Assembly: GCA_037043455.1 (NCBI GenBank)
Contig: JAWPHD010005121.1
Span: 1-64,000, forward strand
DNA from: Cyrtodaria siliqua
Taxonomy: Eukaryota > Mollusca > Bivalvia > Adapedonta > Hiatellidae
Length of the DNA stretch: 64,000 nt
Direction: 5' to 3'
A program made the position numbers and the translations under genes. This document shows positions 7,418 through 30,873 of this stretch, piece after piece. A model generated the notes under the pieces. The model was given only the letters and a program-made list of their open reading frames with translations. It did no database searches and was not told the DNA's origin. Position 1 is the stretch's first letter; each line of letters opens with the position of its first letter.

Positions 7418-7670
7418 CTGAAATCTGTTTACGGTGACGTTAGTGTCGAAAATAAATTGAATGGCTAAAGGCCCCATCATCACGGTGGAATTATTCGTGG
7501 CCTGGAGTAGAAGTATCGTCATAAACATCACCTGTGCTTGAAGTCTCCCGCCCCAGTACACAAAACAAACAAATATTAGAAGCGATAGCACTCTGTCCAT
7601 TAGTAGATAGTAATGAAACACTGTTAGGCCCTTAATGTATCCAATCTGTTTAATCTGTTTTGCTTCAGCC
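7418..7670 (-). CDS. ABCC4-like: ABCC4-like alternative exon G4 (TM5-TM6, one codon longer)
   Basis: Fourth copy, 253 bp (still 3n+1), acceptor aaattttacag, donor GTTAGT. It starts A-E-A-K-Q-I-K-Q-I-G-Y-I-K-G-L. TM5 start reads V-F-H-Y-Y-L-L-M-D-R-V-L, one residue longer than I-T-V-K-V-L in G1/G2 and carrying an Asp. The core reads F-V-C-F-V-Y-W-G-G-R-L-Q with Trp in place of Ser. TM6 reads Q-A-T-N-N-S-T-V-M-M-G-P. Both splice sites and the frame are intact. It is the last copy before the left edge; the next exon (linker to NBD1) was not found in 1-7417. Confidence 0.86.
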
Positions 7671-7769
7671 CTGTAAAATTTGGAGGAAAAAAACAAGATA
7701 AAAATGGTAATAGTTTTTGTGTTTAAAAATTGTAATTTTATCAAAATAATGCATTTAAAGACACACAAA

Positions 7770-8376
7770 ACAAGAGGTCCATGACCTTTAAGCTCTGCTG
7801 ATAGGTTTTGATAGCTAGATCAGCATTCCTGTGAAGTTTCATGATTTTCATAAAGTATTTTCAGAGGAGTAGTCGCTACAACTTTTTACTATATAACTAT
7901 GTAAACAAAGATGGCCACTGGCAGCCATGTTTAATGTTGAATCAAAATAAATTTCAACAAGAACCACATCATGTCATGCTGATCAAATTAGAAAAAGTCC
8001 AATATCACTATCACTTATTTTTTTCAATGAGTAGTTGCTACAAATTTGTTTTTTAAAAAGCTACTATTAGCCATGGCAGCAATCTTGAATTTACGGCCAC
8101 CCTGACATTTTGCTAGGATCAACTAGACATTAAGAGCAACATTTCTGTTAAGTTTCATGAAAATCATTCAAGTAGTTTCAGAGGAGTAGTCGCTACAAGT
8201 TTTTATAACTCCATGTAAACAAAGATGACCGCTGGCAGCCATGTTTAACGTCGAATCAAAATGATTTTCAACAAGGATCAACACCATGCCATGTCGATCA
8301 TTTTAGAAATAGTCCCATATTTATATCACTTATAGTTTTCAAGAAGTAGTCGCTACAAACATGTTTTTTTAACATA
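7770..8376 (+). mobile_element. Pearl-like element, 3' truncated
   Basis: Starts ACAAGAGGTCCATGACCTTT about 100 bp to the right of exon G4, with two core units. It ends near 8376 against another repeat family. The ACGG tract and hairpin are absent. Confidence 0.7.
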
Positions 8377-8379
8377 AAT

Positions 8380-9630
8380 CGATCACCTGAGTACTGGCAC
8401 ATTATAAAACTTCTTCGAAATCTTATGGTCATATACAATCTTTGCAAGTTTGGTTAAGATTGTTCAAGAAATGTGGGCTCTGTTGTGTATAGCAAGATTC
8501 ATATAAAGACACTGACAAAGTTTGGTAAATATCAAATACGAAATGAAGGTGCTAGAGTGTAAAACGTTGGGCATGGCCAAATATGACCCCAGGGCCACAT
8601 GTAATATTTCAGAGCTTTGTGGTTTCAGAGAAGAAGATTTTTTAAGTTTTTCCCTAAACAAGTCTATGTAAAACATGACCCCCTGGGCGGGGCCAAATGT
8701 GACCCCACGATCACCATTTGAATAAACTTGGTAGAGGACCACAATCTTTATAGTAAATGCAAAATATTAAACCTCTGGCTCTTGCAGTTTCAGAGAAGAT
8801 TTTTTTTCCCTATATATATATATATATATGTCTATGTAAAACAGTGACCCCCGGGAATATGACTGTAATACATGAGAGTTCTAAACATGTCTATGTTAAA
8901 CATGTGACCCTTGGGGCGGGGTCAAATGTGACCCGAAGTTTACCATTTGAACAAACTTGGTAAAGGACCTTAAGCTGATAGTAAATGCAAAATATCAAAC
9001 CTCTGGCTCTTGTAGTTTCCGAGAAGAAGATTTAAAAAAAAAAAATATCCTATATAAGTGACCCCCGAGGCGGGAACAAATTTGACTCCAGGGTCACCAT
9101 TTGAACAAACTTAGAGGACCATAAGTAGATGCTACATGTAATACATGAGAGCTCTGGGCATTTGATTTCAGAGAAGAAGATTTTTTAAAGTTTTTTTGTA
9201 TATGTCTATATGAAAAACATGCAAAAAAACTCAATATACAAACTTTGGACCCAGGGGCATTTTTGAACCCGGGGACTTCATTTGAACAAATTTGATAGTC
9301 TAGCCATTGGCGATCATTTATAAGAAAAACTGTTGAAATCTGTCCAGCGGTTCTGGAGAAGAAGATTTTTTAAGGTTTCGTCCATATATGGTAATGGCGG
9401 CCATCTTGGATGTCGCGCTGATCTGATTTTAGAAAATCTAAAAAGCATACATCTAAGGATCATCCATATGAAGTTTGGTCAAAATTAGCCAAGCGGTTTC
9501 TGAGGAGAAATTGTTTGAAGAAAAGTTAACGACGACGACTGACGACGTACAAAGAGGAAGAGTGACGGATGAAGAGTGATCGCAATAGATCACCTTGAGC
9601 CATGGCGGCCATCTTGCATTTCCGGCAAAA
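8380..9630. mobile_element. Tandem-unit element, ttgaacaaacttggtagagg family
   Basis: Several ~160-180-bp units share accatttgaacaaacttggt, agcttatagtaaatgcaaa, ctctggctcttgcagtttc and agaagaagattttttaag. The right end has aaaagttaacgacgacgac and gtgatcgcaatagatcac. A paralogous block lies at 28973-30000. Open frames inside (e.g. minus strand 8464-8742) differ between units and are not credible genes. Confidence 0.65.
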
Positions 9631-9828
9631 TGGTCGTAAGTTGTTTCATATAAAACGGGACCTTGGTTTTTTATGCATGTATTTTAGATAGCTTGCTTTG
9701 AAGGTAAATACAAATACCAGGGTACCAAATACCAAGCAACACAAGGCTTCCAGGTTCCATAGATGGGTGAGTGGAGCTTCCACACTGTATAGGCAGACAC
9801 TAACTACAAGACACACTCTTGACAAATT
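9631..9828. other. Duplicated block flanking the hAT insertions
   Basis: tgcatgtattttagatagc and the accaaatacc segment, paralogous to 30075-30335. It carries the left part of the hAT target (gacaaatt, 9821-9828). Confidence 0.6.
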
Positions 9829-11123
9829 CAGGGTCTTCCCCAGGCGCTTTTAGCACAGCGGGCCCTCTGTGCTTGATTTCCAAAAAACCATACCCTGCGG
9901 TGTCTACAAAGCCGCCGCTGTGCTTTGATTGCGTCATACAGCACTTGACTTAAACGCGTGATACACTACTGTCTCAACTGTGTCTGGTAATTGGATCACA
10001 GCCAGAAGCTACTCAGCAAGTGACCTTGTGTATGCGCGTGCACTGGAGTGTGTTATAAGTCGGTGATTACACAGGTTATGTGTTTGAAGCTGTGAACGAT
10101 TAGGGATGTGTGTCATGTTTGATGGTTTATTGGATGCTCGTTAATTAGATAATGTGATAACTGCTGGATAAACAAGGATTAAAATGGGGAAAAGATTAAA
10201 GAGACAGTGTTGGGGTAAAACATGGATGTTTGGAGAGGTGGCGAAAGAACAGAAAAAAAAGCGCTACGCTAATTGTAAAATGTTCACAGTCTCCGTGGGT
10301 AAGTATTAACGAATAACTATAACTAAATAATGAGAACATGTATTTGTGTATATAAACCGAAGATCAGAAGTAATGTTACTTCAGTAATAAATATGAAGCA
10401 TTCACGTGCATCTAGTTCTGCGGGGATAGTAAAGTTTTTTATACGACAGAGTCCGTCTGTTCAGTCTGTGCTCAAGCCTGAACCTATTGGTTTAAACGTA
10501 TTTTATTTTTTCAATGGTTTACAACATTGCATATATACATTGTACAATTACATTAAAGGATTAGAATGAAAGCAAACTGCTTATAGAATTCTTCTCCTAT
10601 GCTTATAGAATTCTTCTCCTGAACCTATTACGTCAGTGTCCGAGCCCGAACCCAGTACGTCCGTGTCCGAGCCCGAACCTAATATGCAAACTACTGTGTC
10701 TGTATCTACTCCCAAGAAGATCAAACAACGATCATCTGGATTTAATCCAGATTGGAAGAACGACTTTCCATGGGTTGATGAGTTTGAAAATGTAAACATT
10801 GTTTGCTTTAGTTTGTAAATTAATTGAAACCCTTTATTTTTAGATTGAATTGATATTTTTTATTGTCTTTTCTTTAAGGGTCCATCACACAAAACAAGAT
10901 TTTGGCTGGTAAAATAGTATTCATTTGTACATGAATCATACATAAATAATGTATAATATAAATAATGTATAATACATGAGTTTAAAACACTCCAGGTATA
11001 CTTCAGAGCCCACCAAGTCAAGAACGCAAATTAAAAAAAATCGATGCAGTAGGCGGGACACCCCACTTCCGCACCAAACCCCTCCAAATACAGCGCCTGG
11101 ATTTTTTCCTGGGGAAGACCCTG
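9829..11123 (+). mobile_element. Nonautonomous hAT-like element 1 (1295 bp)
   Basis: Perfect 16-bp terminal inverted repeats: CAGGGTCTTCCCCAGG at the left and its reverse complement at 11108-11123. The 5-bp target duplication AAATT flanks it (9824-9828 and 11124-11128). The undisturbed paralogous site at 30327-30350 reads gacaaatttataccacttta, which confirms both borders. CAGGG ends and a short duplication fit the hAT superfamily (5-bp type). Only a fragment of transposase is left inside. Confidence 0.87.
10636..10818 (+). pseudogene. hAT transposase N-terminal relic
   Basis: An open stretch inside hAT element 1 encodes a Ser/Glu/Pro-rich lead (S-E-P-E-P repeats), then a basic K-K-I-K-Q-R-S-S-G-F segment and F-N-P-D-W-K-N-D-F-P-W-V, a motif like the W-x-x-x-F-P-W start seen before the N-terminal zinc finger of hAT-type transposases. 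The expected Cys-x-x-Cys follows only as a single Cys before a stop. No catalytic region is present. The motif match is from memory, so confidence is moderate. Confidence 0.45.
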
Positions 11124-11138
11124 AAATTTATACCACTT

Positions 11139-12812
11139 CAGGGTTCTCCACAGGATTATTTTCAAGCATAGTGGCATAGTAGCGCGTGCTGGGGGAGGGT
11201 ACGGGAGGGGGAATCCCCCTCATGTGTTCGATTTTTTTGGCTTCTAGTAACTGCCTGTATTGACGGTGAGGCACTCTTTTGTGTGATATAAGTGATGTTA
11301 GGAAGCCATATATAATTATATATTTATGATAATAAACAATATAATAAATAATCCATGTTTTAAGACTTTTATTTTAAAAAAAATCTCATAAAAATATTAA
11401 CTAAAATAAGTTCATACACAATAATACATACACAATAATACAACACACATCAACACAACATGCAGCATCTGAAATACATACAATAAACAATAATAAATAA
11501 TCTATGTTTTAATACACGATGAAGAAGAAAACATACAAAGATTTATTATAAGTTTATACACAATAATACAACATATACATCAACACATCATGCACACATA
11601 TAATACCATCAACTACACAATATTCATCCCTGGAAATAAAACAGCACATTTGATAATACTTAAAAAATATAACCTTAGCACTCAAATAAATCCAACACAA
11701 GTTAGCCCATTCAATGTCTTGACTTGTACATATTAGCTAGCAGTTCCTATTCAGATGCTTGACCTTCTAGGTCTGGCCATGTGCCATTCTTCCACTGCCC
11801 TGTCATATTCAAACTGATGGAGGTGGGCCCTGCATTGTTACTGCCAGCAGTGCATTGAGAACTCTGTTACACAGAGTTGACCTGTGCTGTCTTAATTCAA
11901 TCTGCTGTTGATGTTTGAAGAAGCAGACCAACAGCTGCAATATTGTACAAGTTTGGGTGAGACTTCTGAAGCTCTCTTTGTAACCTCCCTCACTTGTCTC
12001 CACTCGATCATCATTGAATCTTCATCCTGGTTAAGGTGGCGGGCCAAGGTCTGAAGAAACATATATAAATAATTTAATATATTATAAATATATAATAGAC
12101 CAACACGCTTAATAATAGTAATAACTGAATTATTTTTGTTTTATTTTGTAAGTAATTTCTAGTATTTTTGTTTTCAAAATATTGACAAGCTTTGAAGTAA
12201 ACAGATAAATAAACTACCTTCATTTCTTCTTTTCTTTTTTCAAATGACCAGATATTATCCCACAATTGCTATTTATTTTATTTATTAACGCACAAACTTA
12301 AATCAAATGACAACCAAAACAATTATACTTACTTACGCAAAACAAACAAACTCCTGCACATCACATCTTTCATTTCCGTCTTGAACAATACACGTTAGCC
12401 GATACACAAACTGCCAATATTAACAAACTGTCCAGTTCAACTGCTTTAAGTTACATTCTCACATCCCAATTATCTCCGAATTACTGATTAATCCACAACA
12501 ACCCGACAATCCAATCAACTCGTGATAATTGCAATTTGTTGTCAACAATCCACTAATCACACAGCGTGTTATCGCACGTTCTGCATACTGCATAGATCAG
12601 TCACGTGTTACTTGTGTGTATTGTTTGACGCGAGTTTATGAATTTGTGTACGGTGCGCATAAGGGTTTTTAAAGGCGGCGTTTGCCTTCAGATCAAAGCA
12701 CCGCGCTCTGGTTTTTAAGCATAGCGGCGCAGTTTAGGCACCGCGGGATGTAAGATTTTGGAAGTCAAGCGCAGCGGCTCCGCTATGCTTAAATGGCCTG
12801 TGGAGAACCCTG
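11139..12812 (-). mobile_element. Nonautonomous hAT-like element 2 (1674 bp)
   Basis: Terminal inverted repeats CAGGGTTCTCCACAGG (11139-11154 and reverse complement at 12797-12812), flanked by the 5-bp duplication CACTT (11134-11138 and 12813-12817). Only 10 bp of original DNA lie between the target duplications of elements 1 and 2. The TIR is a relative of that of element 1, not identical. Internally AT-rich with a transposase fragment on the minus strand. Confidence 0.87.
11760..12003 (-). pseudogene. hAT transposase C-terminal relic, frameshifted
   Basis: Minus-strand reading gives L-C-N-R-V-L-N-A-L-L-A-V-T-M-Q-G-P-P-P-S-V and a stop. Shifting by one base near 11815 continues F-E-Y-D-R-A-V-E-E-W-H-M-A-R-P-R-R, which resembles the C-terminal end of hAT transposases. 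It is an inactivated remnant. Confidence 0.5.
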
Positions 12813-13279
12813 CACTTTAAGACAGGTTAAGTTAGGGTACAGAATTGAATTGTTTGACAGCATGATTGAATTATTTAGATCCACTCCCAGAGACAGGATG
12901 CAGATGAATCCAGTAACACCAGGATCACCCTAAATTTTAGTAGTTAATGATATCAACGGATCATTTACATTTCCGGAATTTTACTTCAATAACCCCCCAG
13001 TTAACGGTCCTATCCGACTGACATGATTTAGGTAATTTAGAGCCACTCCCACAGAGAGGGAAGGGGCAAAAAGGATTCCAGGGTCACTCTAAAATTACTG
13101 GGGGCAAATTTTGTCAATAACAGAAAGGGTTTCCAGGGTCACTCTAAAAATGTAATATATTACAATGGTTTGTTTACATTCCCGGAAAATAACTTTAATA
13201 ACCCTCAGTCACCGTTTCTGTTTGATTGACAAATCAGTGAAGGTGCTTAGTTACTCACAAGAGCACACATTTATGTATC
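12813..13279. repeat. Duplicated non-coding block before the 24-bp satellite
   Basis: Contains gacaggttaagttagggtac, taacaccaggatcacc, ggatcatttacatttccgga and ccagggtcactctaaa. Nearly the same block at 32368-32810 also leads into the 24-bp satellite, and part recurs at 30340-30500. Part of the segmental duplication; no gene seen. Confidence 0.7.
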
Positions 13280-13648
13280 CAAACACTTTCAGACTCTAAC
13301 CCACACACTTCCACACACTTTCAGACTCTCTAACCCACACACTTTCAGACTCTCTAACCCCCCACACACTTTCAGACTCTCTAACCCACACACTTTCAGA
13401 CTCTCTAACCCACACACTTTCAGACTCTCTAACTCACACACTTTCAGACTCTCTAACCCACACACTTTCAGACTCTCTAACCCACACACTTTCAGACTCT
13501 CTAACCCAAACACTTTCAGACTCTCTAACCCACACACTTTCAGACTCTCTAACCCACACACTTTCAGGCTCTCTAACCCACACACTTTCAGACTCTCTAA
13601 CCCACACACTTTCAGACTCTCTAACCCACACACTTTCACAATCACAGT
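13280..13648. repeat. 24-bp satellite array 1 (~15 units)
   Basis: Unit cacactttcagactctctaa+ccca, 24 bp, nearly uniform. Minus-strand open frames (repeats of V-C-G-L-E-S-L-K) exist only because 24 is divisible by three. Confidence 0.92.
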
Positions 13649-13763
13649 ATTTGTAAGCTACCTCTATTCCATTTATGAATCAGCAAATTTGTTAAATTCT
13701 CTCGTTACTCACTGATTGATCACAGTGAAACCAAACAGGTACTTAAAGGCATAATCAGATAAG

Positions 13764-14010
13764 TTGGTTGGTTGGTTCTATGGTGTTTTACGTCATTTTC
13801 AACACATGTAAGGTTATATATGACGGTCGATTTTTTGTGCTGGAGGCAGACCAATCACTTTTCCTGGGTAGAACCAGTAACTCCCGCCATCCTAAGAATC
13901 GACACTTCTCACTTACAAGTCAAGCTCCCAGTGGGATTCGAAACTACAGCGGTGAGAGGCGAAGATTTACAATGCAACGTAGTTAACCATTCGGCCACGG
14001 AGACGCGCCT
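13764..14010 (-). mobile_element. tRNA-derived SINE, full length with target duplication
   Basis: The minus strand begins ggcgcgtctccgtggccgaa+tggttaa (A box like tRNA-Leu/Ser) and carries gtttcgaatcccac (B box) about 50 bp on, then a tRNA-unrelated body and an accaaccaacc tail. Perfect 11-bp direct repeats aatcagataag lie at 13753-13763 and 14011-14021. Related copies lie at 38309-38540 and as fragments at 1365 and 18855. The two overlapping plus-strand frames here are not genes. Confidence 0.85.
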
Positions 14011-14074
14011 AATCAGATAAGACCATTAGAACTTTTTTTAAATATACTGAAAGAAAAAAGAAATGCATAATCAA

Positions 14075-15010
14075 ACAAGAGGTCAATGATCTTGAAGCTC
14101 TATTGATTGATTTTGATTTCAGGAAGTAGTCGCTACAGACTCGTTTTTAGAAAAATTGTTTTTAGCCGTGGCGGCCATCTTGAATTTTCGGCCGACCTGA
14201 AATTTTGCTAGGATCAATAAGACACCAACAGCAACATTCCTGTGAAGTTTCATGAAAATCCGTCAAGTAGTTTCAGAGGAGTAGTCGCTACAAGTTTTCA
14301 TTTTATCACTCTATGTAAACAAAGATGGCCACTGAGAGCCATGTTTAACATCGAATCAAAACGATTTTTGACAAGGACCAACATCATGTCATGCTGATCA
14401 TTTTAGAAAAAGTCCCATATCAATATCACTTATAGTTTTCAAAAAGTAGTCGCTACAAACTTGTATTTTGAAAATCTATTTTAAGCCATGGTGGCCATCT
14501 TGAATTTCCGGCCGACCTGAAATTTTGCTAGGATCAATAAGACACCAAGAGCAACATTAGTGTTAAATTTCATGAAAATTCGTTAAGTAGTTTCAGAGGA
14601 GTAATCGCTACAAGTTTTCATTATATAACTCTATGTAAACAAAGATGGCCACTGGCAGCCATGTTTACCGTCGAATCAAAATAATGTTCGACTCGGATAA
14701 CCATCATGTCATGTTGATAATTTTAGAAAAAGTCCCATATCGATATCACTTATAGTTTTCAAGAAGTAGTCGCTACAAACTTGTTTTTTAAAACTCTATT
14801 TTTAGCTTTGGCGGCCATCTTGGATTTCACATCAACATGAATTTTTGCTAGGATCAACTAGACTTTATGGGCAACATTTCTGTAAAGTTTCATGAATATC
14901 CATCCAGTAGTTTCAGAGGAGTTGTCGCTACAAATAAAAGTTTACGGACAGACGGACAACGGACGCCGCACCACGGCATAAGCTCTGCTGATCTCTGATC
15001 AGTCGAGCTA
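14075..15010 (+). mobile_element. Pearl-like element, full length
   Basis: Begins ACAAGAGGTCAATGATCTTG. It has ~320-bp core units, a short acggacagacggacaacgg tract, then gccgcaccacggcataagct and the terminal hairpin ctgctgatctctgatcag...gagcta. It is inserted in a TIR element: actgaaagaaaaaagaaatg lies just to the left. Confidence 0.8.
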
Positions 15011-15540
15011 AAAACAGTACTTTGAAAGAAAAGCAATGCTTTCAACAAACTGCTGTTCCTCAAGATTAAAAGTGATGTCTGGCAATGTCCCTAATAACTC
15101 ACGGTCGAAGTTTATTGAATATTTTGTAATTACCGCAATTTCCTTTTACACTCCATATCTATTTCAATTCCATGCAATTACTGCAGATACATTTTAATTT
15201 AGGGACTTGAGACGATTTGGATGTGATTCTATGTGAAAGTCTTTCACCAATAACTTGTAATGTAAAGACTAAAGACACTGTGGTACATGCTGCATCCACC
15301 AGGAGTTACTGCTTGGCGATTTGGATGGGATTCTATGTGAAATGTTAATCTTTTCACCAATGACTTGTTGTGTAAAGACTAAAGAAACTGTGGTATACAC
15401 TGTATCCACCAGGAGTTACTGCTTGGTAAATTTTGTATTTTTTATGAATTGATTAAATAAGAAATTATTTACCTATATTATCTAACATCTCAACAGCAAA
15501 AAATCACTTAAGTTATTCAATTTTGCTATGAGCCATAAAT
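15011..15540. other. No gene seen; short local duplication
   Basis: A segment with catccaccaggagttactgcttgg occurs twice (15293-15325 and 15402-15427), giving a ~100-bp direct duplication. Otherwise unremarkable AT-rich DNA. Confidence 0.5.
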
Positions 15541-15542
15541 AG

Positions 15543-15985
15543 ACTGAAAAGAAAAAGAAATGCATACTGCTCATCGAATGGTATGGGGCGACATTAGGCC
15601 TGTCCTTTCGTAAAGAAGGTTTAAACATCACCGAACACACCAATGGTTACCCCTTTAACGTTTCATTATCGACAGAATGCGCATTTGGCTCAAGCAGGTG
15701 AGCAAACTTGGGCTTTAAACTTTGCAATCTCTTAACACTAAGCACAATACTGAAATGGCTTGATTTTTTCAAGCTAAACTTCAACATTTACGAATTTTGT
15801 GTAACAAAGTATACTTTGATTAAAAGCTAGGTCTACTACATGACAGATTTGTCCTATCTGTAGTTAGTTGTAGCCCCTTTTTGTACAAACCACATTGAGA
15901 TATCTGGAATATTAAGTGGAATTAGGTGTATATAATAGTGTAGTATAGGCAATTTTTTCATTATGCGTTTCTTTTTCCTTTCAGT
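15543..15985. mobile_element. Short TIR element (actgaaag...aaacgcata family)
   Basis: Left end actgaaaagaaaaagaaatg and right end gcgtttctttttcctttcagt are inverted repeats. A larger relative in the opposite sense lies at 38579-39504. Both enclose a frame for L-L-I-E-W-Y-x-A-T-L-G-L and E-H-T-x-G-Y-P-F-x-V-S-L-S-T-E followed by a GTGAGC donor (15567-15697, plus strand), probably a leftover exon of an unidentified autonomous parent. Confidence 0.6.
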
Positions 15986-16019
15986 ATATAATTTAATTAA
16001 TATGAATTGAATTGGATTT

Positions 16020-16200
16020 TATAGTGGCATCAACAGCTAAGGTCATATGGTGACTTTCCAGCTTCCACTGGTGGAGGAAGACCCCAGGTGCCCCTCCGGG
16101 CAATTTTCCAGCACGGACGAGCACCTGGGTAGAACCACCGATGTTCCGCAAGCCAACTGGATAGCTTCCTCACATAAAGATTCCTAGGCCCCTGAAATTT
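16020..16200. mobile_element. SINE-like or MITE-like repeat fragment
   Basis: ccactggtggaggaagaccc, aggtgcccctccgggc and gcacctgggtagaaccac look like a molluscan short repeat, GC-rich against its surroundings. Only one copy in the window, so the call is by appearance. Confidence 0.3.
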
Positions 16201-16364
16201 AATTAATATGTACTTTGATCACAAAACAAATACTTCACAAAAAAATATAGCTCCCTACGATTATAACAAAAACTCGCCGACTCGTTGAGCTTAAAAAACA
16301 AAAATTACACTCAATATGAGTCCCTGAATTTCATGCGCTTGTACCTTTTATATGGAACTAAAGC

Positions 16365-16454: not shown

Positions 16455-16704
16455 CTGAAATCTGTTTAGGGTGACGCTAGTGTCGGCCGAAAATTGAATG
16501 GCAAAAGGCGTGAATAGCACAGTAGTCAGATTCACAGCCTGTAGCAGAAGGATCGTCATAAACACCACCTCCGACTGAAGTCTCCCGCCCGAGTACACAA
16601 AACAAACGAACGTTAAAAACGAGATCAGCTTGACTGCTACAAAGAAAGGTCCCACATTTAGGGCCCTAATGTATCCAAGCACTTTAACTTTTTTTGCCTC
16701 ATCC
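16455..16704 (-). CDS. ABCC4-like: ABCC4-like alternative exon G3 (TM5-TM6, most divergent)
   Basis: Third copy, 250 bp, phase 2 in and 0 out, acceptor aaattttacag, donor GTTAGT. It starts D-E-A-K-K-V-K-V-L-G-Y-I-R-A-L-N. Variable parts read V-G-P-F-F-V-A-V-K-L-I-S-F-L-T and Q-A-V-N-L-T-T-V-L-F-T-P-F-A-I. By eye it shares about 57% of residues with G4, yet keeps the F-V-C-F-V-Y-S-G-G-R-L-Q core and an open frame. The changes fall mainly in membrane positions of TM5 and TM6, as expected if it makes a transporter with a different substrate path. Its downstream intron flank remains about 91% identical to that of G4 over 76 bp. Confidence 0.86.
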
Positions 16705-17881: not shown

Positions 17882-18821
17882 ACAAGAGGTCAATGACCTT
17901 GAATCTCTACTGATTGATTTTGATTTCAGGAAGTCGTCGCTACAGACTTGTTTTTTGAAAAATTATATTTAGCCGTGGCGGCCACCTTGAATTTCCGGCC
18001 AACCTGAAATTTTGCTAGGATCAATTAGACATCAAGAGCAACATTCCTGTGAAGTTTCATGAAAATCCGTCAAGTAGTTTCAGAGGAATAGTCGCTACAA
18101 GTTTTCATTATATAACTCTATGTAAACAAAGATGGCCACTGGCAGCCATGTTTAACGTTGAATCAAAATAATGTTTTACTCTGATAACCATCATGTCATG
18201 CTGATCATTTTACAAGAAGTCCCATATCAATATCACTTATAGTTTTCAAGACGTAGTCGCTACAAACTTCTTTTTTAAAAATCTATTTTTAGCTGTGGCG
18301 GCCATCTTGAATTTCTGGCCGATCTGAAATTTTGCTAGGATTAATTAGACATTAAGAGCAACATTCCTGTAAAGTTTCATGAAAATCCACCATGTAGTTT
18401 CAAAGGAGTAGTCGCTACAAGTTTTTACTATATAACTCTATGTAAACAAAGATGGCCGCTGGCAGCCATGTTTAACGTCGAATCAAAACGATTTTCGACA
18501 AGGACCAACATCATGTCATGCTGATGATTTTAGAAAAAGTCCCATATCAATATCACTTATAGTTCTCAAGAAGTAGTCGCTACAAACTTGTTTTTTAAAA
18601 ACCTATTTTTAGATTTGGTGGCCATCTTGGATTTCACATCAACATGAATTTTTGCTAGGATCAACTAGACTTCATGGGCAACATTTCTGTAAAGTTTCAT
18701 GAAAATCCATTTAGTAGTTTCAGAGGAGTAGTCGCTACAAAAAAAGTTTACGGACAGACAGACGGACAGACGGACGCCGCACCACGGCATAAGCTCTGCT
18801 GATCTCTGATCAGTCGAGCTA
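17882..18821 (+). mobile_element. Pearl-like element, full length
   Basis: ACAAGAGGTCAATGACCTTG start, core units, acggacagacagacggacag tract, gccgcaccacggcataagct and a hairpin ending gagcta. The minus-strand frame 18665-18850 is spurious. Confidence 0.82.
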
Positions 18822-19356: not shown

Positions 19357-20827
19357 ACAAGAGGTCAATGACCTTGAAGCTCTACTGATAGATTTTTGAT
19401 AGCTAGGTCAACATTCCTGTGAAGTTTCATGAAAATCCATCAAGCAGTTTCATAGGAGTAGTCGCTACAAGTTTTCATTATATTACTCTATGTAAACAAA
19501 GATGCGGCCATGTTTAATGTCAAATCAAAATAATTTTTGACAAGGATCAACATCATGTCTTACTGATCATTTTAGAAAAAGTCCCAAATCAATATCACTT
19601 ATAGTTTTCAAGAAGTAGTCGCTACAACTTGAATTTGAAAATCTATTTCAAGCCATGGCGGCCATCTTGTATTTCCGGCTGACCTGAAATTTTGCTAGGA
19701 TCAATTAGACATCAAGAGCAACATTCCTGTAAAGTTTCATGAAAATCCGTCGAGTAGTTACAGAGAAGTAGTCTTTACAAGTTTTTACTAGATAACTCTT
19801 ATGTAAACAAAGATGGCCGCTGACAGCCATGTTTAACATCGAATCAAAGAGATTTTCGACAAGGACCAACATCCTGACAAGCTGATTATTTTAGAAAAAG
19901 TCCCATACCAATATCACTTACAATTTTCAAGAAGTAGTCGCCATAAACTTGTTTTTTGAAAATCTATTTTTAGCCGTGGCGACCATCTTGAATTTCCGGC
20001 CGACCTGAAGTTTTTCTAGGATCAATTAGACATCAAGAGCAACATTCGTGTGAAGTTTCATGAAAATCCGTCAAGTGGTTTCAGAGGAGTAGTCGCTACA
20101 AGTTTTCATTATATAACTCTATGTGAACAAAGATGGCCGCTGGTGGCTATGTTTAATGTCAAATCAAAATAATTTTTGACAAGGATCAACATTATGTCAT
20201 ACTGATCATTTTAGGAAAAGACGCATATCAATATCACTTATAGTTTTCAAGAAGTAGTCGCTACAAACTTGTATTTTGAAAATTTATTTTTAGCCGTGGC
20301 GGCCATCTTGAATTTCCGGCCGACCTGAAATTTTGCTAGGATCATTTAGACCTCAAGAGCAACATTCCTGTGAAGTTTCATGGAAATCTGTCTAGTAGTT
20401 TCAGAGGAGTAGTCGCTACAAGTTTTTACTAAATAACTCTATGTAAATAAAGATGGCCGCTGGCAGCCATGTTTAATGTCAAATCAAAACGATTTTCGAC
20501 AAGGACCAACATCATGTCATGCTGATCATTTTAGAAAAAGTCCCATATCAAGATCACTTATAGTTTTCAAGAAGTAGTCGCTACAAACTTGTTTTTTAAA
20601 AATCTATTTTTAGATTTGGTGGCCATCTTGGATTTCACATCAACATGAATTTTTGCTAGGATCAACTAGACTTCATGGGCAACATTTCTGTAAAGTTTCA
20701 TGAAAATCCATTTAGTAGTTTCAGAGGAGTAGTCGCTACAACAAAAAAGTTTACGGATGGACAGACGGACGGACGACGGACGCCGCACCACGGCATAAGC
20801 TCTGCTGATCTCTGATCAGAAGAGCTA
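19357..20827 (+). mobile_element. Pearl-like element, full length, four core units
   Basis: Starts ACAAGAGGTCAATGACCTTG. Several core units are followed by gacagacggacggacgacgg, cgccgcaccacggcataagc and a hairpin ending agagcta. Confidence 0.82.
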
Positions 20828-21975: not shown

Positions 21976-22135
21976 TGAATAAGAAATTATATCCCTCGAT
22001 TATTTCGCATTTCAAATATTAAAATATCACTGAGATAACATACATATTTATGTAATTTATATTTCTCGTAATAAGAGCACCTCCATTTTCGACCTTCTGA
22101 ATCAAAAATTCCCGCCCAAAAAATTCAAAATTCAA

Positions 22136-25100
22136 ACAAGAGGTCAATGACCTTGAAGCTCTACTGATAGATTTTGATAGCTAGGTGATCAGCATTCCTG
22201 TGAAGTTTCATAAAAAAATGTCAAGTAGTTTCAGAGGAGTAGTCGCTACAAGTTGAAGTTTTTACTATATAACTCTAGGTAAACATAGATGGCCACTGGC
22301 AGCCATGTTTAATGTTGAATCAAAATACTTTTCGACAAGGATCAACATCTTGTCATGCTGATCATTTCAGAAAAAGTCCCATATCAATATCACTTAGTTT
22401 TCAAGAAGTAGTCGCTACAAACTTTTTTTTTAAAAATCTGTTTTTAGCTATGGCAGCCATCTTGAATTTCCGGCCGACCTAAAAAAAATCTGGGATCAAT
22501 TAGACATCAAGAGCAACATTCCTGTGAAGTTTCATAAAAATGTGTCGAGTAGTTTCAGAGGGGTAGTCGCTACAAGTTTTTACTATATAAATCTATGTAA
22601 ACAAAGATGGCCGCTAGCGGCCATGTTTAAAGTTGCATCGAAATAAATTTCGACAAGGATCAACATCATGTCATGCTGATCATTTTAGAAAATGTCCCAT
22701 ATCAATATCACTTACAGTTTTCAAGAAGTAGTCGCTACAAATTTATTTATTTTGAATCTATTTTTAGCCGTGGCGGCCATTTTGAATTTCCGGCCAGCCT
22801 GAAATTTTGCTAGGATCAACTAGACATCAAGAGCAACATTCCTGTGAAGTTTCATGAACATCCGTCAAGTAGTTTCAGAGGAGTAGTCGCTACAAGTTTT
22901 TACAATATAACTCTATGTAAACAAAGATGGCCACTGGCAGCCATGTTTAACGTCGAATCCAAATAATGTTCGACAAGGATCAACATCATGTCAAGCTGAT
23001 CATTTTAGAAAAAGTCCCATATCAATATCACTTCTAGTTTTCAAGAAGTAGTCGCTACAAACTTATTTTTTAAAAATCTATTTTTAGCTGTGGCGGCCAT
23101 CTTGAATTTCTGGCCGATCTGAAATTTTGCTAGGATCAATTACACATCAAGAGCAACATTCCTGTAAAGTTTCATGAAAATCCGCCAAGTAGTTTCAGAG
23201 GAGTAGTCGCTACAAGTTTTTACTATATAACTCTATGTAAACAAAGATGGCCACTGGCAGCCATGTTTAATGTCGAATCAAAAAGATTTTTGACAACGAC
23301 CAACATCATGTCATGCTGATCATTTTAGAAAAAGTCCCATATCAATATCACTTATAGTTTTCAAGAAGTAGTCGCTACAAACTTGTATTTTAACAAGAGG
23401 TCAATGACCTTGAAGCTCTACTGATTGATTTTGATTTCAGGAAGTAGTCGCTACAGACTTGTTTTTTGAAAATCTATTTTTAACCGTTGCGGCCATCTTG
23501 AATTTCCGGCCGACCTGAAATTTTGCTAAGATCAATAAGACATTAAGAGCAACATTCCTGTGAAGTTTCATGAAAATCCATCAGGTAGTTTCAAAGAAGT
23601 AGTCGCTACAAGTTTTCATTATATAACTCTATGTAAACAAAGCAGCCATGTTTAAGGTCAAATCAAAACGATTTTCGACAAGGACCAACATCATGTCATA
23701 CTGATCATTTTAGAAAAAGTCCCATATCAATATCTCTTATTGTTTTGAAGAAGTAGTCGCTACAAACTTATTTATTTTAAATCTATTTTTTGCTGTGGTG
23801 GCCATCTTGAATTTCCGGCCGACCTGAAATTTTTCTAGGATCAACTAGACATCAAGAGCAACATTCCTGTGAAGTTTCATGAACATCCGTCAAGTAGTTT
23901 CAGAGGAGTAGTCGCTACAAGTTTTTACTATATAACTCTATGTAACCAAAGATGGCCACTGGCAGCCATGTTTAACGTCGAATCAAAATAATTTTCCACA
24001 AGGATCTACATCATGTCATGCTGATCATTTTAGAAAAAGTCCCATATCAATATCACTTATAGTTTTCAAGAAGTAGTCGCTACAAACTTATTTTTTAAAA
24101 ATCTATTTTTAGCTGTGACGGCCATCTTGAATTTCCGGCCGACCTGAAATTTTGATAGGATCAATTAGACATCAAGAGCAACATTCCTGTAAAGTTTTAT
24201 GACAATCCGCCAAGTAGTTTCAGAGGAGTAGTCGCTACAAGTTTTTACTATATAACTCTATGTAAACAAAGATGGCCGCTGGCAGCCATGTTTAACGTTG
24301 AATCAAAACGATTTTTGACTAGGATCAACATCATGTAATGCTGATCATTTTAGAAAAAGTCCCATATCAATATCACTTATAGTTTTCAAGTAGTAGTCGC
24401 TACAAACTTATTTTTTAAAAATCTATTTTTAGCTGTGACGGCCATCTTGAATTTCCGGCCGACCTGAAATTTTTCTAGGATCAATCAGACATCAAGAGCA
24501 ACATTCCTGTAAAGTTTCATGACAATCCGCCAAGTAGTTTCAGAGAAGTAGTCGCTACAAGTTTTTACTATATAACTCTATGTAAACAAAGATGGCCGCT
24601 GGCAGCCATGTTTAATGTTGAATCAAAACGATTTTTGACTAGGATCAACATCATGTCATGCTGATCATTTTAGAAAAAGTCCCATATCAATATCACTTAT
24701 AGTTTTCAAGAAGAAGTCGCTACAAACTTGTATTTTAAAACTCTATTTTTAGCTTTGGCGGCCATCTTGGATTTCACATCAACATGAATTTTTGCTAGGA
24801 TCAACTAGACTTTATGGGCAACATTTCTGTAAAGTTTCATGAATATCCATCCAGTAGTTTCAGCTGTGAAGTCGCTACAAGTTTTTACTATATAACTCTA
24901 TGTAAACAAAGATGGCCGCTGGCAGCCATGTTTAACGTTGAATCAAAACGATTTTTGACTAGGATCAACAATATGTCATACTGATCATTTTAGAAAAAGT
25001 CCCATATCAATATCACTTATAGTTTTCAAGAAGAAGTCGCTACAAACTTGTATTTTAAAATTCTATTTTTAGCTTTGGCGGCCATCTTGGATTTCACATC

Positions 25101-25893
25101 AACATGAATTTTTGCTAGGATCAACTAGACTTTATGGGCAACATTTCTGTAAAGTTTCATGAATATCCATCCAGTAGTTTCAGCTGTGAAGTCGCTACAA
25201 GTTTTTACTATATAACTCTATGTAAACAAAGATGGCCGCTGGCAGCCATGTTTAACGTTGAATCAAAACGATTTTTGACTAGGATCAACATCATGTCATG
25301 CTGATCATTTTAGAAAAAGTCCCATATCAATATCACTTATAGTTTTCAAGAAGAAGTCGCTACAAACTTGTATTTTAAAACTCTATTTTTAGCTTAGGCG
25401 GCCATCTTGGATTTCACATCAACATGAATTTTTGCTAGGATCAACTAGACTTTATGGGCAACATTTCTGTAAAGTTTCATGAATATCCATCCAGTAGTTT
25501 CAGCTGTGAAGTCGCTACAAATAAAAGTTTACGGACAGACAGACGGACAGACGGACAGACGGACAGACGGACAGACGGACGGACGGACGACGGACTCCGC
25601 ACCACGGCATAAGCTCTGCTGATCTCTGATCAGTAGAGCTAAAAATCTATTTTTAGCTTTGGCGGCCATCTTGGATTTCACATCAACATGAATTTTTGCT
25701 AGGATCAACTAGACTTCATGGACAACATTTCTGTAAAGTTTCATGAATATCCATCCAGTAGTTTCAGAGGAGTAGTCGCTACAAATAAAAGTTAACGGAC
25801 ATACAGACGGACGGACGGACAGACGGACAGACAGACGGACGACGGAGGCCGCACCACGGCATAAGCTCTGCTGATCTCTGATCAGAAGAGCTA
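22136..25893 (+). mobile_element. Pearl-like element split by a nested pearl-like element
   Basis: The outer element starts ACAAGAGG at 22136, is interrupted at 23392 within ...acttgtatttta and resumes at 25642 with aaaatctatttttagctttg. It ends with its own acggacggacagacggacag tract and an agagcta hairpin near 25893. The joined target equals the uninterrupted sequence in other copies, so the nesting is exact. Confidence 0.8.
23393..25641 (+). mobile_element. Nested pearl-like element with ~320-bp units
   Basis: Starts ACAAGAGGTCAATGACCTTG and carries about seven core units. The last three are almost identical (agtttcagctgtgaagtcgc variant), which indicates recent amplification. A long (acggacag)n tract at 25530-25590 and a hairpin ending agagcta close it. 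Confidence 0.82.
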
Positions 25894-26057
25894 AAAATAA
25901 GAGCGCCCCTTGGCATTTTGCATAGCTTGCATAGCGCCCGGGCGCTATAATTAGGGGAAATACATTCATATAACCTTTATCACAAAAAAAATACTTTTCA
26001 CCTTGTAGCCTCCTATGAATATAACAAATCTCATTCACAAAACAATCATTTTCTTTA

Positions 26058-27521
26058 ACAAGAGGTCAATGACCTTGAAGCTCTACCGATAGATTTTTGA
26101 TAGCTAGGTCAACGTTCCTGTGAAGTTTCATGAAAATCCATCAAGTAGTTTCATAGGGGTAGTCGCAACAAGTTTTCATTATATAACTATGTAAACAAAG
26201 ATGTCCGCTGGCGGCCATGTTTAATGTCAAATCAAAATAATTTTTGACAAGGATCAACATCATGTCATACTGATCATTTTAGAAAAAGTCCCATATTAAT
26301 ATCACTTATAGTTTTCAAGAAGTAGTCGCTACAAACTTGAATTTTGAAAATCTATTTTTAGCCATGGTGGCCATCTTGAACTTCCGGCCGGCCTGAAATT
26401 TTGCTAGGATCAATTAGACATCAAGAGCAACATTCCTGTAAAGTTTTATGAAAATCCGCCAAGTAGTTTCAGAGGAGTAGTCGCTACAAGTTTTTACTAT
26501 ATAATTCTTTGTAAACAAAGATGGCAGCTGGCAGCCATGTTTAACGTCAAATCAAAACGATTTTTGACAAGGACCAAGATCATGTCATGCTGATCATTTT
26601 AGAAAAAGGTCCCATATCAATATCACTTATAGTTTTCAAGAAGTAGTCGCTACAAACTTGTATTTTGAAAATCTATTTTTAGCTGTGGCGGCCATCTTGA
26701 ATTTCCGGCCGACCTGAAATTTTGCTAGGATCAATTAGACATTAAGAGCAACATTCCTGTAAAGTTTCATGAAAATCCGCCAAGTAGTTTCAGAGGAGTA
26801 GTCGCTACAAGTTTTTACTATATAATTCTATGTAAACAAAGATGGCTGGCCATGTTTAACGTCGAACCAAAACGATTTTTGACAAGGACCAACATCATGT
26901 CATGCTGATCATTTTAGAAAAAGTCCCATATCAATATCACTTATAGTTTTCAAGAAGTAGTCGCTACAAACTTGTATTTTGAAAAATTATTTTTAGCCGT
27001 GGCGGCCATCTTGAATTTCCGGCCGACCTGAAATTTTGCTAGGATCAATTAGACATCAAGAGCAACATTCCTGTGAAGATTCATGAAAATCCGTCAAGTA
27101 GTTTCAGAGGAGTAGTTGTTACAAGTTTTCACTATATAACTCTATGCAAACAAAGATGGCGTATGGCAGCCATGTTTAACTTCGAATCAAAACGATTTTC
27201 GACAAGGACCAACATCATGTCATGCTGATCATTTTAGAAAAAGTCCCATATCAATACCACTTAGAGTTTTCAAGAAGTAGTCGCTACAAACTTGTATTTT
27301 AAAAATCTATTTTTAGCTTTGGCGGCCATCTTGGATTTCCCATCAACATGAATTTTTGCTAGGATCAACTAGACTTCATGGGCAACATTTCTTTAAAGTT
27401 TCATGAATATCCATCCAGTAGTTTCAGAGGAGTTGTCACTACAAATAAAAGTTTACAGACAGACGGACGAAGGACGCCGCACCACGGCATAAGCTCTGCT
27501 GATCTCTGATCAGTCGAGCTA
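26058..27521 (+). mobile_element. Pearl-like element with paralogous empty site
   Basis: Full-length copy from ACAAGAGG to gagcta. The left flank cattttcttta and right flank aaaacaattgaactgaaca join to match the uninterrupted cattttctttaaaaacaatt at 7271-7290 beside exon G4. It inserted after the exon-G unit was duplicated, about 150 bp from the G2 donor. Confidence 0.87.
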
Positions 27522-27582
27522 AAAACAATTGAACTGAACATGAGTCCCTGAATTTCATACACTTGAACCTTTTATATGGAAC

Positions 27583-27673
27583 TAAAGCGCTTGGTGATTT
27601 TAATTATATTTTGATAGACATCCGTAATTCTTCCAGTTCACCTTCAGTCCCATTAACTATCGTGCAAACTAAC
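27583..27673 (-). other. Conserved intron flank downstream of G2 donor
   Basis: Same block as beside the other copies, with small changes (ccagttcacc for ccagatcacc, cttcagtccc for ctttagtccc) and a short change next to the donor, where cgtgcaaac replaces ctactcacataaac. Confidence 0.55.
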
Positions 27674-27923
27674 CTGTAATCTGTTTTTGGTGACGTTGGT
27701 GTCGAAAATAAATCGAATGGCTAAAGGTCCCATCAGCACGGTGGATATATTCATGGCATTGAGCAGAATTATCGTCATAAACACCACCTGTGCTTGAAGT
27801 CTCCCGCCCGAGTACACAAAACAAACAAATACTAGAAGCGATAGCACTTTGACCGTTATATAGTAAGTGAGCACAGTTAGGCCCCTAATGTATCCAATCT
27901 GTTTAATCTGTTTTACTTCAGCC
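27674..27923 (-). CDS. ABCC4-like: ABCC4-like alternative exon G2 (TM5-TM6)
   Basis: Second copy, 250 bp, same phases, same acceptor context (aaattttacag) and the same CAG|GTTAGT donor as G1. It starts A-E-V-K-Q-I-K-Q-I-G-Y-I-R-G-L. Variable parts read V-L-T-Y-Y-I-T-V and N-A-M-N-I-S-T-V-L-M-G-P. Near the end it has R-F-I-F-D-T-N-V-T-K-N-R-L-Q where G1 has Q, I and F. It is closest to G1, about 88% of residues by eye, so these two are the youngest pair. A pearl-like element inserted about 30 bp before its acceptor (27953 onward) could disturb its branch-point region, so usage needs testing. Confidence 0.86.
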
Positions 27924-27952
27924 CTGTAAAATTTAGAGGAGAAAACAAGATA

Positions 27953-28354
27953 ACAAGAGGTCAATGACCTTGAAGCTCTACTGATAGATTTTGATAGCTA
28001 GGTGATCAGCATTCCTGTGAAGTTTCATAAAAAAATGTCAAATAGTTTCAGAGGAGTAGTCGCTACAAGTTGAAGTTTTTACTACATAACTCTAGGTAAA
28101 CAAAGATGGCCAGTGGCAGCCATGTTTAATGTTGAATCAAAATAATTTTCGACAAGGATCAACATCTTGTCATGCTGATCATTTCAGAAAAAGTCTCATA
28201 TCAATATCACTTACAGTTTTCAAGAAGAAGTCGCTACAAACTTTTTTTTAAAAAATCTGTTTTTAGCCATGGCGGCCATCTTGAATTTCTGGCCGACCTA
28301 AAAAAATTCTGGGATCAATTAGACATCAAGAGCAACATTCCAGTGAAGTTTCAT
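27953..28354 (+). mobile_element. Pearl-like element, truncated, beside G2 acceptor
   Basis: ACAAGAGGTCAATGACCTTG begins 30 bp from the first base of exon G2 (on its upstream side). It is cut off at about 28354, before any ACGG tract. Confidence 0.75.
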
Positions 28355-28713
28355 GACGTCACTTGGTAAATATACGTCACGAAGACAAACTCAACAGTAA
28401 TTTTAATGAAATGTTAATTACAACAAACTTACCATGCTCCCAAACCATAAGCATCAGTACACATATAACTTTAATAAGCATCTTGAACAAGCTGAGAACG
28501 TTTGACGTCATACAGCGCAAGCTATATGACCTAAACAATGACTTAATTGTTTGTCACGTGACTACTAGTGTATTGAAACGCAGAACTTTGCATACGGGGG
28601 TGCCCAATGGAACAGCCTGTAAACATAGCAGCCTGATTACCTTGACCTCCGAGATAATATATATCGCCACAACAATAGCGTAAACAATGGGGTTATTGTC
28701 GTGTTAGAATCGA
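28355..28713. other. No recognised gene; 106-codon open frame of unknown standing
   Basis: Plus-strand frame 28363-28683 has no recognisable motif, no paralogue in the window and ordinary composition. It lies between a truncated element and a palindrome. It may be part of a longer mobile element; evidence for coding is weak. Confidence 0.25.
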
Positions 28714-28860
28714 AATAATAAATACCTACATGTATTTTATCGGTGAATAAAATACAGTTAGTCGTTCGGATGCGAATAATTAAATGATTTAATTACTACG
28801 CATCCGAACTCCTAGCTGTATTTTATTCACCAATAAAACACAGGTACATATTTATTATTT
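28714..28860. repeat. Large imperfect palindrome (foldback element)
   Basis: Left arm aataataaatacctacatgt+attttatcggtgaataaaat and right arm attttattcaccaataaaac+acaggtacatatttattatt pair across a centre at aattaaatgatttaatt, with gttcggatgcg and cgcatccgaac inside. Arms are about 70 bp. Confidence 0.8.
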
Positions 28861-28865
28861 CTTCA

Positions 28866-28972
28866 CTAAAGCGCTTGGTGAGTTCAATTATATTTTGATA
28901 GACATCCGTAATTCTTCCAGATCACCTTTAGTCCCATTAACTATCTACTCACATAAACTAACCTGAAATCTG
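28866..28972 (-). pseudogene. Stump of a fifth exon-G copy
   Basis: About 97 bp matching the intron flank of the G exons (ttgatagacatccgtaattc and ttccagatcacctttagtcc both present) run into the donor and the last ten exon bases (ctgaaatctg, 28963-28972). Homology then stops abruptly and a repeat similar to 8700-9560 begins. The rest of the exon, its acceptor and its upstream flank are missing. This is a fifth copy destroyed by a deletion or repeat-mediated exchange. The GT donor remains but there is no exon to use it. Confidence 0.82.
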
Positions 28973-30000
28973 ATTTGACACCAGGGTCACCATTTGAACA
29001 AACTTGGTAGAGGACCATAAGCTTATAGCAAATGCAAAATACTAAACCTCAGTTTTTCTCTATACAAGCCTATGTAAAACTGTGACCCCCAGGGTGGGGC
29101 AAAATGTGACCCCAGGGTCACCATTTGAGCAAAATTGGTAGAGCACCATAAACTTATAGCAAATGCAAAATATTAAACCTCCGGCTCTTGCAGTTTCAAA
29201 AGAAGATTTTTTAAGTTTTTCCCTATGTAAGTCTATGTAAAACTTTGACCCTTGTGGCGGGGACAACTTTGACCCTTGGGTCACCATTTGAACATCTTAG
29301 TAGAGGAACATAATAAGCTGATGCTACATGTAATACATGAGAGTTCTATACATGTCTATGTAAAACATGTGACCCTTGGGGTGGGGTCAAATGTGACCTG
29401 AAGTTTACCATTTGAACAAACTTGGTAAAGGACCATAAGCTGATAGTAAATGCAAAATATTAAACCTCTGGCTCTTGTAGTTTCCGAGAAGAAGATTTTT
29501 AAAAAGAAAATCCTATATAAGTGACCCCTGAGGCGGGGACAAATTTGACACCAGGGTGACCATTTGAACATACTTAGAGGACCATAAGTAGATACTACAT
29601 GTAATACATGAGAGCTCTGGGCCTTGTGGTTTCAGAGAAGAAGATTTTTATATGTCTATATGAAAAACATGAAAACTCTCAATATACAAACTTTGGACCC
29701 CCGGGGCATTTTTGAACCCGGGGACTTCATTTGAACAAATTTGATTGGCGATCATTTTAAAAGAAAAACTGTTGAAATCTGTGCAGCCGTTCTGGAGAAG
29801 AAGATTTTTTAAGGTTTCATCCAAATATGGTAATGGCGGCCATCTTGAATGTCACGCTGATCTAATTTTAAAAAATCTAAAAAGCATACATATAAGGATC
29901 ATCCATGTAAAGTTTGGTCAAAATTAGCCAAGCGGTTTCTGAGGAGAAGTTGTTTGAAGAAAAGTTAACGACGGCGACAGACGACAGACGATGGACGAAG
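28973..30000. mobile_element. Tandem-unit element, second copy, replacing exon
   Basis: Same family as 8380-9600 (accatttgaacaaacttggt; ctctggctcttgtagtttcc). It begins exactly where the fifth exon G copy breaks off and ends at gaagaaaagttaacgacggc. A short pearl-like scrap follows (30010-30065). Confidence 0.65.
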
Positions 30001-30074
30001 AAATAAAACTTATATTTAGCAATGGCGGCCATCTTGTATTTCCGGCCGACCTGAAATTTTGCTAGGATCAAAAT

Positions 30075-30534
30075 GGTTGTAAGTTGTTTCATATAAAACG
30101 GGGCCTTAGTTTTTTATGCATGTATTTTAGATAGCTTGCTTTGAAGGTAAATACAAATACTAGGGTACCAAATACCAAGCAACACAAGGCTTCCAGGTTC
30201 CATAGATGGGTGAGTGGAGGGGATGCTCCACCAGAAAAACATGCAGAAATCAAAATGAGCATCGACTGTGTATCTGCAAATAAGCGGCTTCGACACTGTA
30301 TAGGCAGACACCAACTACAAGACACACTCTGACAAATTTATACCACTTTAAGACAGATTAAGTTAGGGTACAGCATGATTGAATTATTTAGAGCCACACC
30401 CAGACAGACAGGATACAGTAACACCAGGATCACCCTAAATTTTAGTAGGTAATGATATCAACGGTTCATTTACATTTCCGGAATATAACTTCAATAACCC
30501 CCAGTAAACATATTTATTATTTCTTAACTAATGG
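30075..30534. repeat. Duplicated block carrying the uninterrupted hAT target
   Basis: Paralogous to 9640-9828 plus 12813-12990. Across 30321-30350 it reads continuously through gacaaatttataccacttta, the target that two hAT elements occupy in the other block. Confidence 0.75.
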
Positions 30535-30623
30535 CTTGGTGAGTTTAATTATATTTTGATAGACATCCAGAATTCTTCCAGATCACCTTTAGTCCCATTA
30601 ACTACTTACTCACATAAACTAAC
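30535..30623 (-). other. Conserved intron flank downstream of G1 donor
   Basis: Intron sequence immediately 3' of the G1 donor (in the sense of the gene), shared with the other G copies and the exon stump. Candidate splicing-control element or simply part of the duplicated unit. Confidence 0.6.
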
Positions 30624-30873
30624 CTGAAATCTGTTTATGGTGACGTTGGTGTCGAAAATAAATTGAATGGCTAAAGGTCCCATCAACACGGTGGATATAT
30701 TCATGGCATGGAGCAGAATTATCGTCATAAACATCACCTGTGCTTGAAGTCTCCCGCCCGAGTACACAAAACAAACAAATACTAGAAGCGATAGCACTTT
30801 GACCGTTATATAGTAATGGAGCGCAGTTAGGCCCTTAATGTATCCAATCCGTTTAATCTGTTTAACTTCAGAC
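30624..30873 (-). CDS. ABCC4-like: ABCC4-like alternative exon G1 (TM5-TM6)
   Basis: The copy nearest exon F. Minus strand: ctctaaattttacag, G, 83 codons, CAG, donor GTTAGT; 250 bp, phase 2 in and 0 out. The product begins S-E-V-K-Q-I-K-R-I-G-Y-I-K-G-L and ends D-T-N-V-T-I-N-R-F-Q. It matches the MRP4 segment from the basic helix after exon F through TM5, the short outer loop and TM6 to the R-x-Q before the linker. Variable parts read A-L-H-Y-Y-I-T-V (TM5 start) and H-A-M-N-I-S-T-V-L-M-G-P (TM6). The core F-V-C-F-V-Y-S-G-G-R-L-Q is shared. About ten residues differ from G2. The frame is open and the splice sites intact, so it is probably functional. Confidence 0.88.

Follow-up and report, generated by a model that had tools for sequence, protein, structure and literature searches.

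A probable array of 14 variant TM5-TM6 exons, predicted to be used one per mRNA, in an ABCC4-like gene of the bivalve Cyrtodaria siliqua

The first 64,000 bases of contig JAWPHD010005121.1 (C5121; 170305 bases) from the assembly of the bivalve Cyrtodaria siliqua (2.88 Gb, 26948 contigs), here called the window, carry part of a transporter gene in which the exon encoding predicted transmembrane segments 5 and 6 (TM5-TM6) is present in several copies. A sequence-only reading of the window had noticed four such copies and proposed that they form a mutually exclusive splicing cassette. This raised the question of whether the copies are built to be used one at a time and whether four is their full number. 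The results presented below make it quite probable that this ABCC4-like gene possesses an array of 14 copies, four in the window and ten on a second contig, C1342, with a single copy predicted for each mRNA.

On the minus strand of the window, exons E2-E7 of the gene can be spliced together and are open in a single frame. The four copies, c1-c4, follow E7 (Table 1). Their coordinates, strand and open frames had been given correctly in the sequence-only reading, and the acceptor aaattttacag and the donor GTTAGT that it described were found before and after every copy. Each copy is open in one frame, in which its first base completes a codon and its last base closes one. E7 ends with AG, and the first base of each copy, G, turns this into AGG, an arginine codon, at all four junctions. 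We assigned the letters A-E to the types of this exon, and c1-c4 are of type A. At the protein level c2, c4 and c3 are 88%, 79% and 58% identical to c1, and c3 has 62% identity to the Dreissena homologue versus 35-40% for the other window copies. A tblastn search with 120 homologues (E ≤ 0.01) revealed no further ABCC exons in the stretches separating them, in agreement with the earlier reading. A profile designated A4 likewise detected c1-c4 alone above noise in the window, and nothing in C5121:64001-84000.

Open stretches of 250 or 253 bases between AG and GT are not rare by themselves, being found in 29 out of 846 such pairs on both strands of the window. Chance can be ruled out for c1-c4 because homology is combined here with common phase, strand and order. 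The use of open frames as proof of function was dropped, as a neutral simulation kept 19-73% of frames open over 13-65 substitutions.

Since the window begins at base 1 of C5121, the gene runs past the edge of the window and of the contig, and the common downstream exon expected for such copies lies outside. When the genome was searched at the DNA level with c1 plus its flank, one more exon (c5) came to light on C1342, a contig that ends 92 bases upstream of it. The terminal 773 bases of that contig align with the c3 unit at 93%; the alignment begins 94 bases upstream of the c3 exon and is split into two pieces, between which about 79 bases of the c3 downstream flank are absent. The common exon E9 was found further along C1342, followed by NBD1, TMD2 and NBD2 exons, down to 250 kb. 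It is likely, on sequence grounds, that C1342 continues the gene of C5121; the register of the array at the junction is ambiguous, and the evidence is strong but is no proof. Alternatively, C1342 could carry the 3′ portion of another, paralogous gene, the window gene then having four copies here. ABCC4-like genes are indeed clustered, with a paralogue upstream on C5121 and an E4-like exon on contig C6066. However, C5121 and C1342 both break off inside one repeated unit, which has the same orientation on each, and the missing piece is predicted to span about 290 bases if the broken unit resembles that of c3; E1-E7 are all on C5121, whereas the fetched 65 kb of C1342 contain E9 onward without E1-E7; and a genome search for A- and C-type exons (queries c3, c7 and c9; 31 candidates scored) gave eight matches, exclusively on these two contigs. 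We therefore regard a second gene as improbable.

With C1342 as the continuation, the array was scanned over C1342:271673-331672 (six stretches) using profile A4, which was built from 25 segments with c1-c7 included and c8-c14 excluded. Ten further copies were found (E 1.2e-34 to 1.2e-7), three of which, c5, c6 and c7, had first been detected by BLAST. Copies c8-c14, although outside the profile, still score E 6.5e-22 to 1.2e-7, and A4 thus matches all 14. Every one of the 14 is on the minus strand, is flanked by AG and GT, measures 250 or 253 bases, has phase 2 at its start and phase 0 at its end and is free of stops. Copies c5-c14 start with A or G, giving AGA or AGG as the split codon, which again encodes arginine. 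The number of copies in the array is very likely 14 instead of four.

Table 1. Coordinates of the variant exons, constitutive exons and associated elements (positions in the window unless a contig is named)
Feature	Position	Strand	Remarks
Variant exon c1	30624..30873	-	250 bases; TM5-TM6, type A
Variant exon c2	27674..27923	-	250 bases; type A
Variant exon c3	16455..16704	-	250 bases; type A; nearest to Dreissena
Variant exon c4	7418..7670	-	253 bases; type A; one codon more
Variant exon c5	C1342:331331-331580	-	
Variant exon c6	C1342:324973-325222	-	
Variant exon c7	C1342:318919-319168	-	
Variant exon c8	C1342:306674-306926	-	
Variant exon c9	C1342:292704-292953	-	
Variant exon c10	C1342:289706-289955	-	
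Variant exon c11	C1342:283802-284054	-	
Variant exon c12	C1342:283201-283453	-	
Variant exon c13	C1342:282569-282818	-	
Variant exon c14	C1342:279892-280144	-	
Relic	28862..28975	-	114 bases: last 13 exon bases, donor and intronic flank; exon body gone
c1 intronic flank	30524..30623	-	common to c2-c4 and relic; +17..+87 is a dispersed repeat
Contig-end tandem array	1..814	-	74% like the array beginning 382 bases upstream of c3; marks break before c5
Constitutive exon E1	C5121:78999-79073		beyond window; starts MDESLKHH; sequence MDESLKHHNPNPILKANPLSKLFFW
Constitutive exon E2	62456..62566	-	WLNPLFK...; acceptor, donor and homology
Constitutive exon E3	59966..60086	-	splice sites and homology
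Constitutive exon E4	59599..59814	-	splice sites and homology
Constitutive exon E5	57447..57536	-	splice sites and homology
Constitutive exon E6	56177..56340	-	splice sites and homology
Constitutive exon E7	54802..54927	-	final exon before array; phase 2 end (AG)
Common exon E9	C1342:274877-274987		TFLLLDELPVDESK...; phase 0

An assembly artefact, in which haplotypes or separate gene copies were collapsed into one locus, needed to be considered, as tandem arrays are abundant in this region and each of the two contigs ends next to one. Nevertheless, four copies are present on one contig with only 58-88% protein identity of c2-c4 to c1, none of the 40 scored genome matches placed c1, c2 or c4 on another contig, and the constitutive exons are not repeated between copies. 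Moreover, the scallop Pecten maximus shows the same exon-segment swap (see below). Such a collapse is very improbable.

The reading frame itself distinguishes between the possible joinings. Inclusion of a single copy leaves E7, the copy and E9 open in 14 out of 14 cases. Because the length of every copy is 1 mod 3, two consecutive copies shift the frame, and an in-frame stop was found in all 182 ordered pairs when E9 was included. In genomic order all 91 pairs are stopped, 81 of them within the second copy and the remainder in E9, and the same is true of 364 out of 364 triples; larger combinations are consequently stopped as well. Skipping all of the copies produces a stop after four E9 codons. 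As joined or wholly skipped copies bring a stop, mRNAs with one copy are the only ones to read through. This analysis tells what can be translated, and choice by splicing is a prediction from it. Mutually exclusive exon clusters are recognised, according to the relevant passages of PMC3228551 (Pillmann et al. 2011), by similarity in length, splice sites and frame and by homology. Similar length, conserved splice sites and frame, and homology were found in all 14 copies. The cassette suggested by the sequence-only reading is thus well founded in its anatomy (length class, phase, splice sites, homology, frame stops and the Pecten pair), but its four copies were incomplete, and the at least four transporters that it deduced are a prediction.

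In the mechanism that we propose, splicing control would select one copy per transcript and wrongly joined or skipped products would be cleared by nonsense-mediated decay. The choice of copy would retune the TM5-TM6 part of the ligand pocket. Types A, B and C would predate this species, while c1, c2 and c4 would have arisen by a recent local expansion within type A.

Evidence for such a swap in another bivalve comes from isoforms X1 and X2 of Pecten maximus (P0008 and P0009). These have 1444 residues each and differ at 21 positions, all within residues 300-383, which is the segment homologous to the variant exon; both are of type A. Proteins of equal length were compared among 120 taken from a database whose clustering at 90% identity conceals pairs of this kind. 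Seven equal-length pairs had fewer than 100 differences, and in the Pecten pair alone were these confined to the variant segment. A search for A and B isoforms of the same gene in oysters gave two proteins, one being the query.

The variant segment diverges strongly even among close relatives, as seen in 34 chosen homologues (31 segments excised by pattern and three by eye). A tree of 41 segments was constructed with 27 of these; Haliotis rufescens, Physella, Biomphalaria and Pinctada were left out. The copies of C. siliqua fall in several places. Type A joins Dreissena and Mya (100/97) and c9 joins Mercenaria and Mya (99/92); the grouping of c8 and c10 with a paralogue from Mya (92/84) is less secure. 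The placement of c14, a long branch, is unsure. A single origin of the 14 copies within the species, forming one clade, was rejected on this tree by the approximately unbiased (AU) test (p-AU 5.1e-6). The scatter of the copies together with this rejection argues that the exon types are likely older than this species.

To which part of the protein the variation applies can be judged from human MRP4, whose prostaglandin E1 (PGE1) pocket, as described in the pertinent part of PMC10202912, includes F211, F324, L363, L367, F368, M990, G991, W995 and R998. Through alignment with bovine MRP4, whose residues at these positions are identical, four of the nine (F324, L363, L367 and F368) map to the variant exon. 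Over the 14 copies position 324 is occupied by F, G, L, S, T, W or Y and position 368 by A, F, H, M, R, V or Y, the alignment of the far types being approximate. We infer a retuned pocket because these four positions sit in the variant exon and vary between copies. The resulting pumps may differ in cargo. Two hydrophobic stretches are kept in each copy, with best 19-residue means of 1.2 to 2.2.

A possible signal for splicing control was sought in the introns. The flank of about 90 bases 3′ of c1-c4 seemed more conserved than the exon itself. However, the flank was rejected as an array-specific splicing selector, since it is mostly a dispersed repeat, its part +17..+87 matching 34 other places in the genome at 80-93% (34 of 40 matches listed), and about 79 bases of it are gone at c5. 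Co-option of this repeat for splicing may have occurred. Consensus folding of the c1-c4 flank gave 18 pairs with one two-sided change, an unconvincing result. When the four flanks were scanned for duplexes with both array ends (three shuffles each, at half scanning density), the best energies fell within or near the shuffled range; c2 against the upstream intron, at -35.0, beat all three shuffles (-32.5). Partners near 33770 and 2965 recur with each of the four flanks; as these are near-copies of one another, the recurrence is non-independent. For the flanks of all 14 copies, sorted into nine groups, k-mer complementarity to the first or last 3 kb of the E7-c1 intron or to the whole c14-E9 intron did not exceed that of shuffles. 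Among the shared motifs only one 7-mer, present in the downstream flanks of six out of nine groups versus a shuffle maximum of five, exceeded the shuffles. Most of the dispersed element is missing on the donor side of c5 (C1342:331331), though c5 is 93% protein-identical to c3, and excision or gene conversion would account for this loss.

Tests of selection were performed on 12 pairs of copies. Synonymous change exceeded nonsynonymous change in c8-c10 (p 9.5e-5), c6-c7 (0.008), c3-c5 (0.013) and c1-c3 (0.045), and after correction for 12 tests only c8-c10, a pair under purifying selection by this measure, was significant. The difference was not significant in the other eight pairs.

A number of observations weigh against the array as proposed. 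Purifying selection was not seen among c1, c2 and c4 (three pairs, p 0.74-1.0). For types D and E the protein database yielded no relative at E ≤ 0.001 among 1417 candidates, and the Pecten pair was the sole direct same-species pair seen in the clustered database. Convincing docking or selector pairing was not found by the duplex scans and k-mer tests, which covered one species. For eight of the 14 copies, either TM5 or TM6 reaches a best hydropathy mean over 19 residues of less than 1.6, the usual cut-off. C5121 and C1342 are separate contigs, joined by inference over a tandem array of ambiguous register. Finally, copies die here: besides the relic in the window, C1342 carries a degenerate type-B copy at 289062-289388 (E 1.3e-4) and a weak type-C-like fragment at 318726-318914 (E 0.05), both likely dead members of the array.

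Some of these data would also suit a different explanation, namely that only c3, together with c5-c14, are real alternatives, c1, c2 and c4 being recent intron duplicates that are skipped and drifting. Nonsynonymous and synonymous rates are alike in the latter three, c3 is the copy closest to Dreissena, copy loss is evident on both contigs, and neutral drift over 13-33 substitutions leaves the frame open with a chance of 0.40-0.73. On the other hand, c1, c2 and c4 retain the open frame, phase, acceptor, donor and arginine codon, and the lone change in length is that of a whole codon. We consider this explanation rather unlikely, and c1, c2 and c4 may be either diversifying or decaying duplicates.

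The predicted array has several known counterparts. Drosophila MRP (CG6214), with variable exons 4 and 8, is likewise an ABCC gene with tandem homologous internal exons used singly. The sequence-only reading pointed to fly MRP as a precedent, but the nearest one is in other molluscs, in the form of the Pecten isoforms; these belong to the same gene family and are swapped over the same segment, being known there as database isoforms only. The relevant part of PMC6071210 counts eight exons in the MRP cluster of the fly and refers to Yue et al. 2017 for MRP exons having been duplicated independently in different phyla, and dMRP is described in a section of PMC6185855 as the fly orthologue of long ABCCs, which carry TMD0. 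In contrast to Drosophila MRP, the present gene is of the short ABCC4-like kind and likely has 14 copies rather than eight. Mollusca are reportedly named in the Yue 2017 abstract among the phyla with MRP1 exon duplication. The large arrays of insect Dscam are likewise homologous with one exon per mRNA, which for the present gene is a prediction; whereas Dscam employs docking/selector pairing, here convincing pairing was not found and the reading frame itself penalises double inclusion. Among the papers listed from the open literature, none was on a mollusc ABCC4-like array, as judged by titles and the beginnings of abstracts, subscription papers being mostly uncovered. Overall, the array is very likely a large case of an already known class, larger, older and nearer to mollusc isoforms than was first recognised.

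The substrate range of ABC pumps usually shifts by gene duplication, and here one gene would achieve this by exon choice. If true, it would provide a set of 14 pumps, exceeding the eight of the fly MRP array, and would be a case of the reading frame alone enforcing one-of-many splicing. Fourteen natural variants at human MRP4 ligand-binding positions constitute a ready structure-function series, and the array is a candidate basis of xenobiotic resistance in filter feeders. More tentatively, bivalves could possess an old ABCC4-like array that swaps the TM5-TM6 wall of the pocket, in which at least three types (A, B and C) are kept across bivalves and lineages add more; tissue- or toxin-dependent choice among 14 pumps might then underlie multixenobiotic resistance.

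The assignment of the gene rests on homology and domain layout. Nearest by identity among named proteins are ABCC4-like proteins of bivalves, namely those of Ruditapes (77% over 93% of the query), Dreissena (75%), Mya (72%) and Mercenaria (71%); ranked by E-value, a deer protein with 45% identity comes first. Using phmmer, c1 was aligned with residues 306-386 of bovine MRP4/ABCC4 (8swn and 8sx7; E 1.3e-4), in accord with the ABCC4-like TM5-TM6 assignment of the earlier reading. The MDESLKHH start of E1 matches residue 1 of ABCC4-like protein P0002, indicating a short ABCC layout without TMD0. The N-terminal TMD0 that marks long ABCCs (MRP1, dMRP) was not seen in an upstream search reaching C5121:84000, and the domain order over C5121 and C1342 is TMD1, NBD1, TMD2, NBD2. 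By these measures the gene is ABCC4 (MRP4)-like.

A paralogous ABCC4-like gene lies upstream of E1 on the same contig and strand, at C5121:106981-136977 (NBD1 at 136.8 kb to NBD2 at 107 kb). The E4-like exon on the other contig, C6066:150598-150831, is 81% identical to Dreissena and perhaps belongs to the 5′ part of the paralogue.

Within the exon array, arrays of 320-base units recur at 14117-14933, 17924-18740, 19409-20741, 22193-23384 and 23435-27444, and blocks related to these units are also present upstream of c1, c2, c3 and c4. They are possibly pearl-type elements of bivalves. The E7-c1 intron contains a tandem array of a 66-base unit at 45892-54383 (128.7 copies, 97% matches), which sits inside a plus-strand frame open for 2876 codons. 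In the same intron, on the minus strand, two open stretches of 118 codons with identical translation are found 2.6 kb apart, at 34325-34681 and 36927-37283; from their sequences, these represent a recent duplication.

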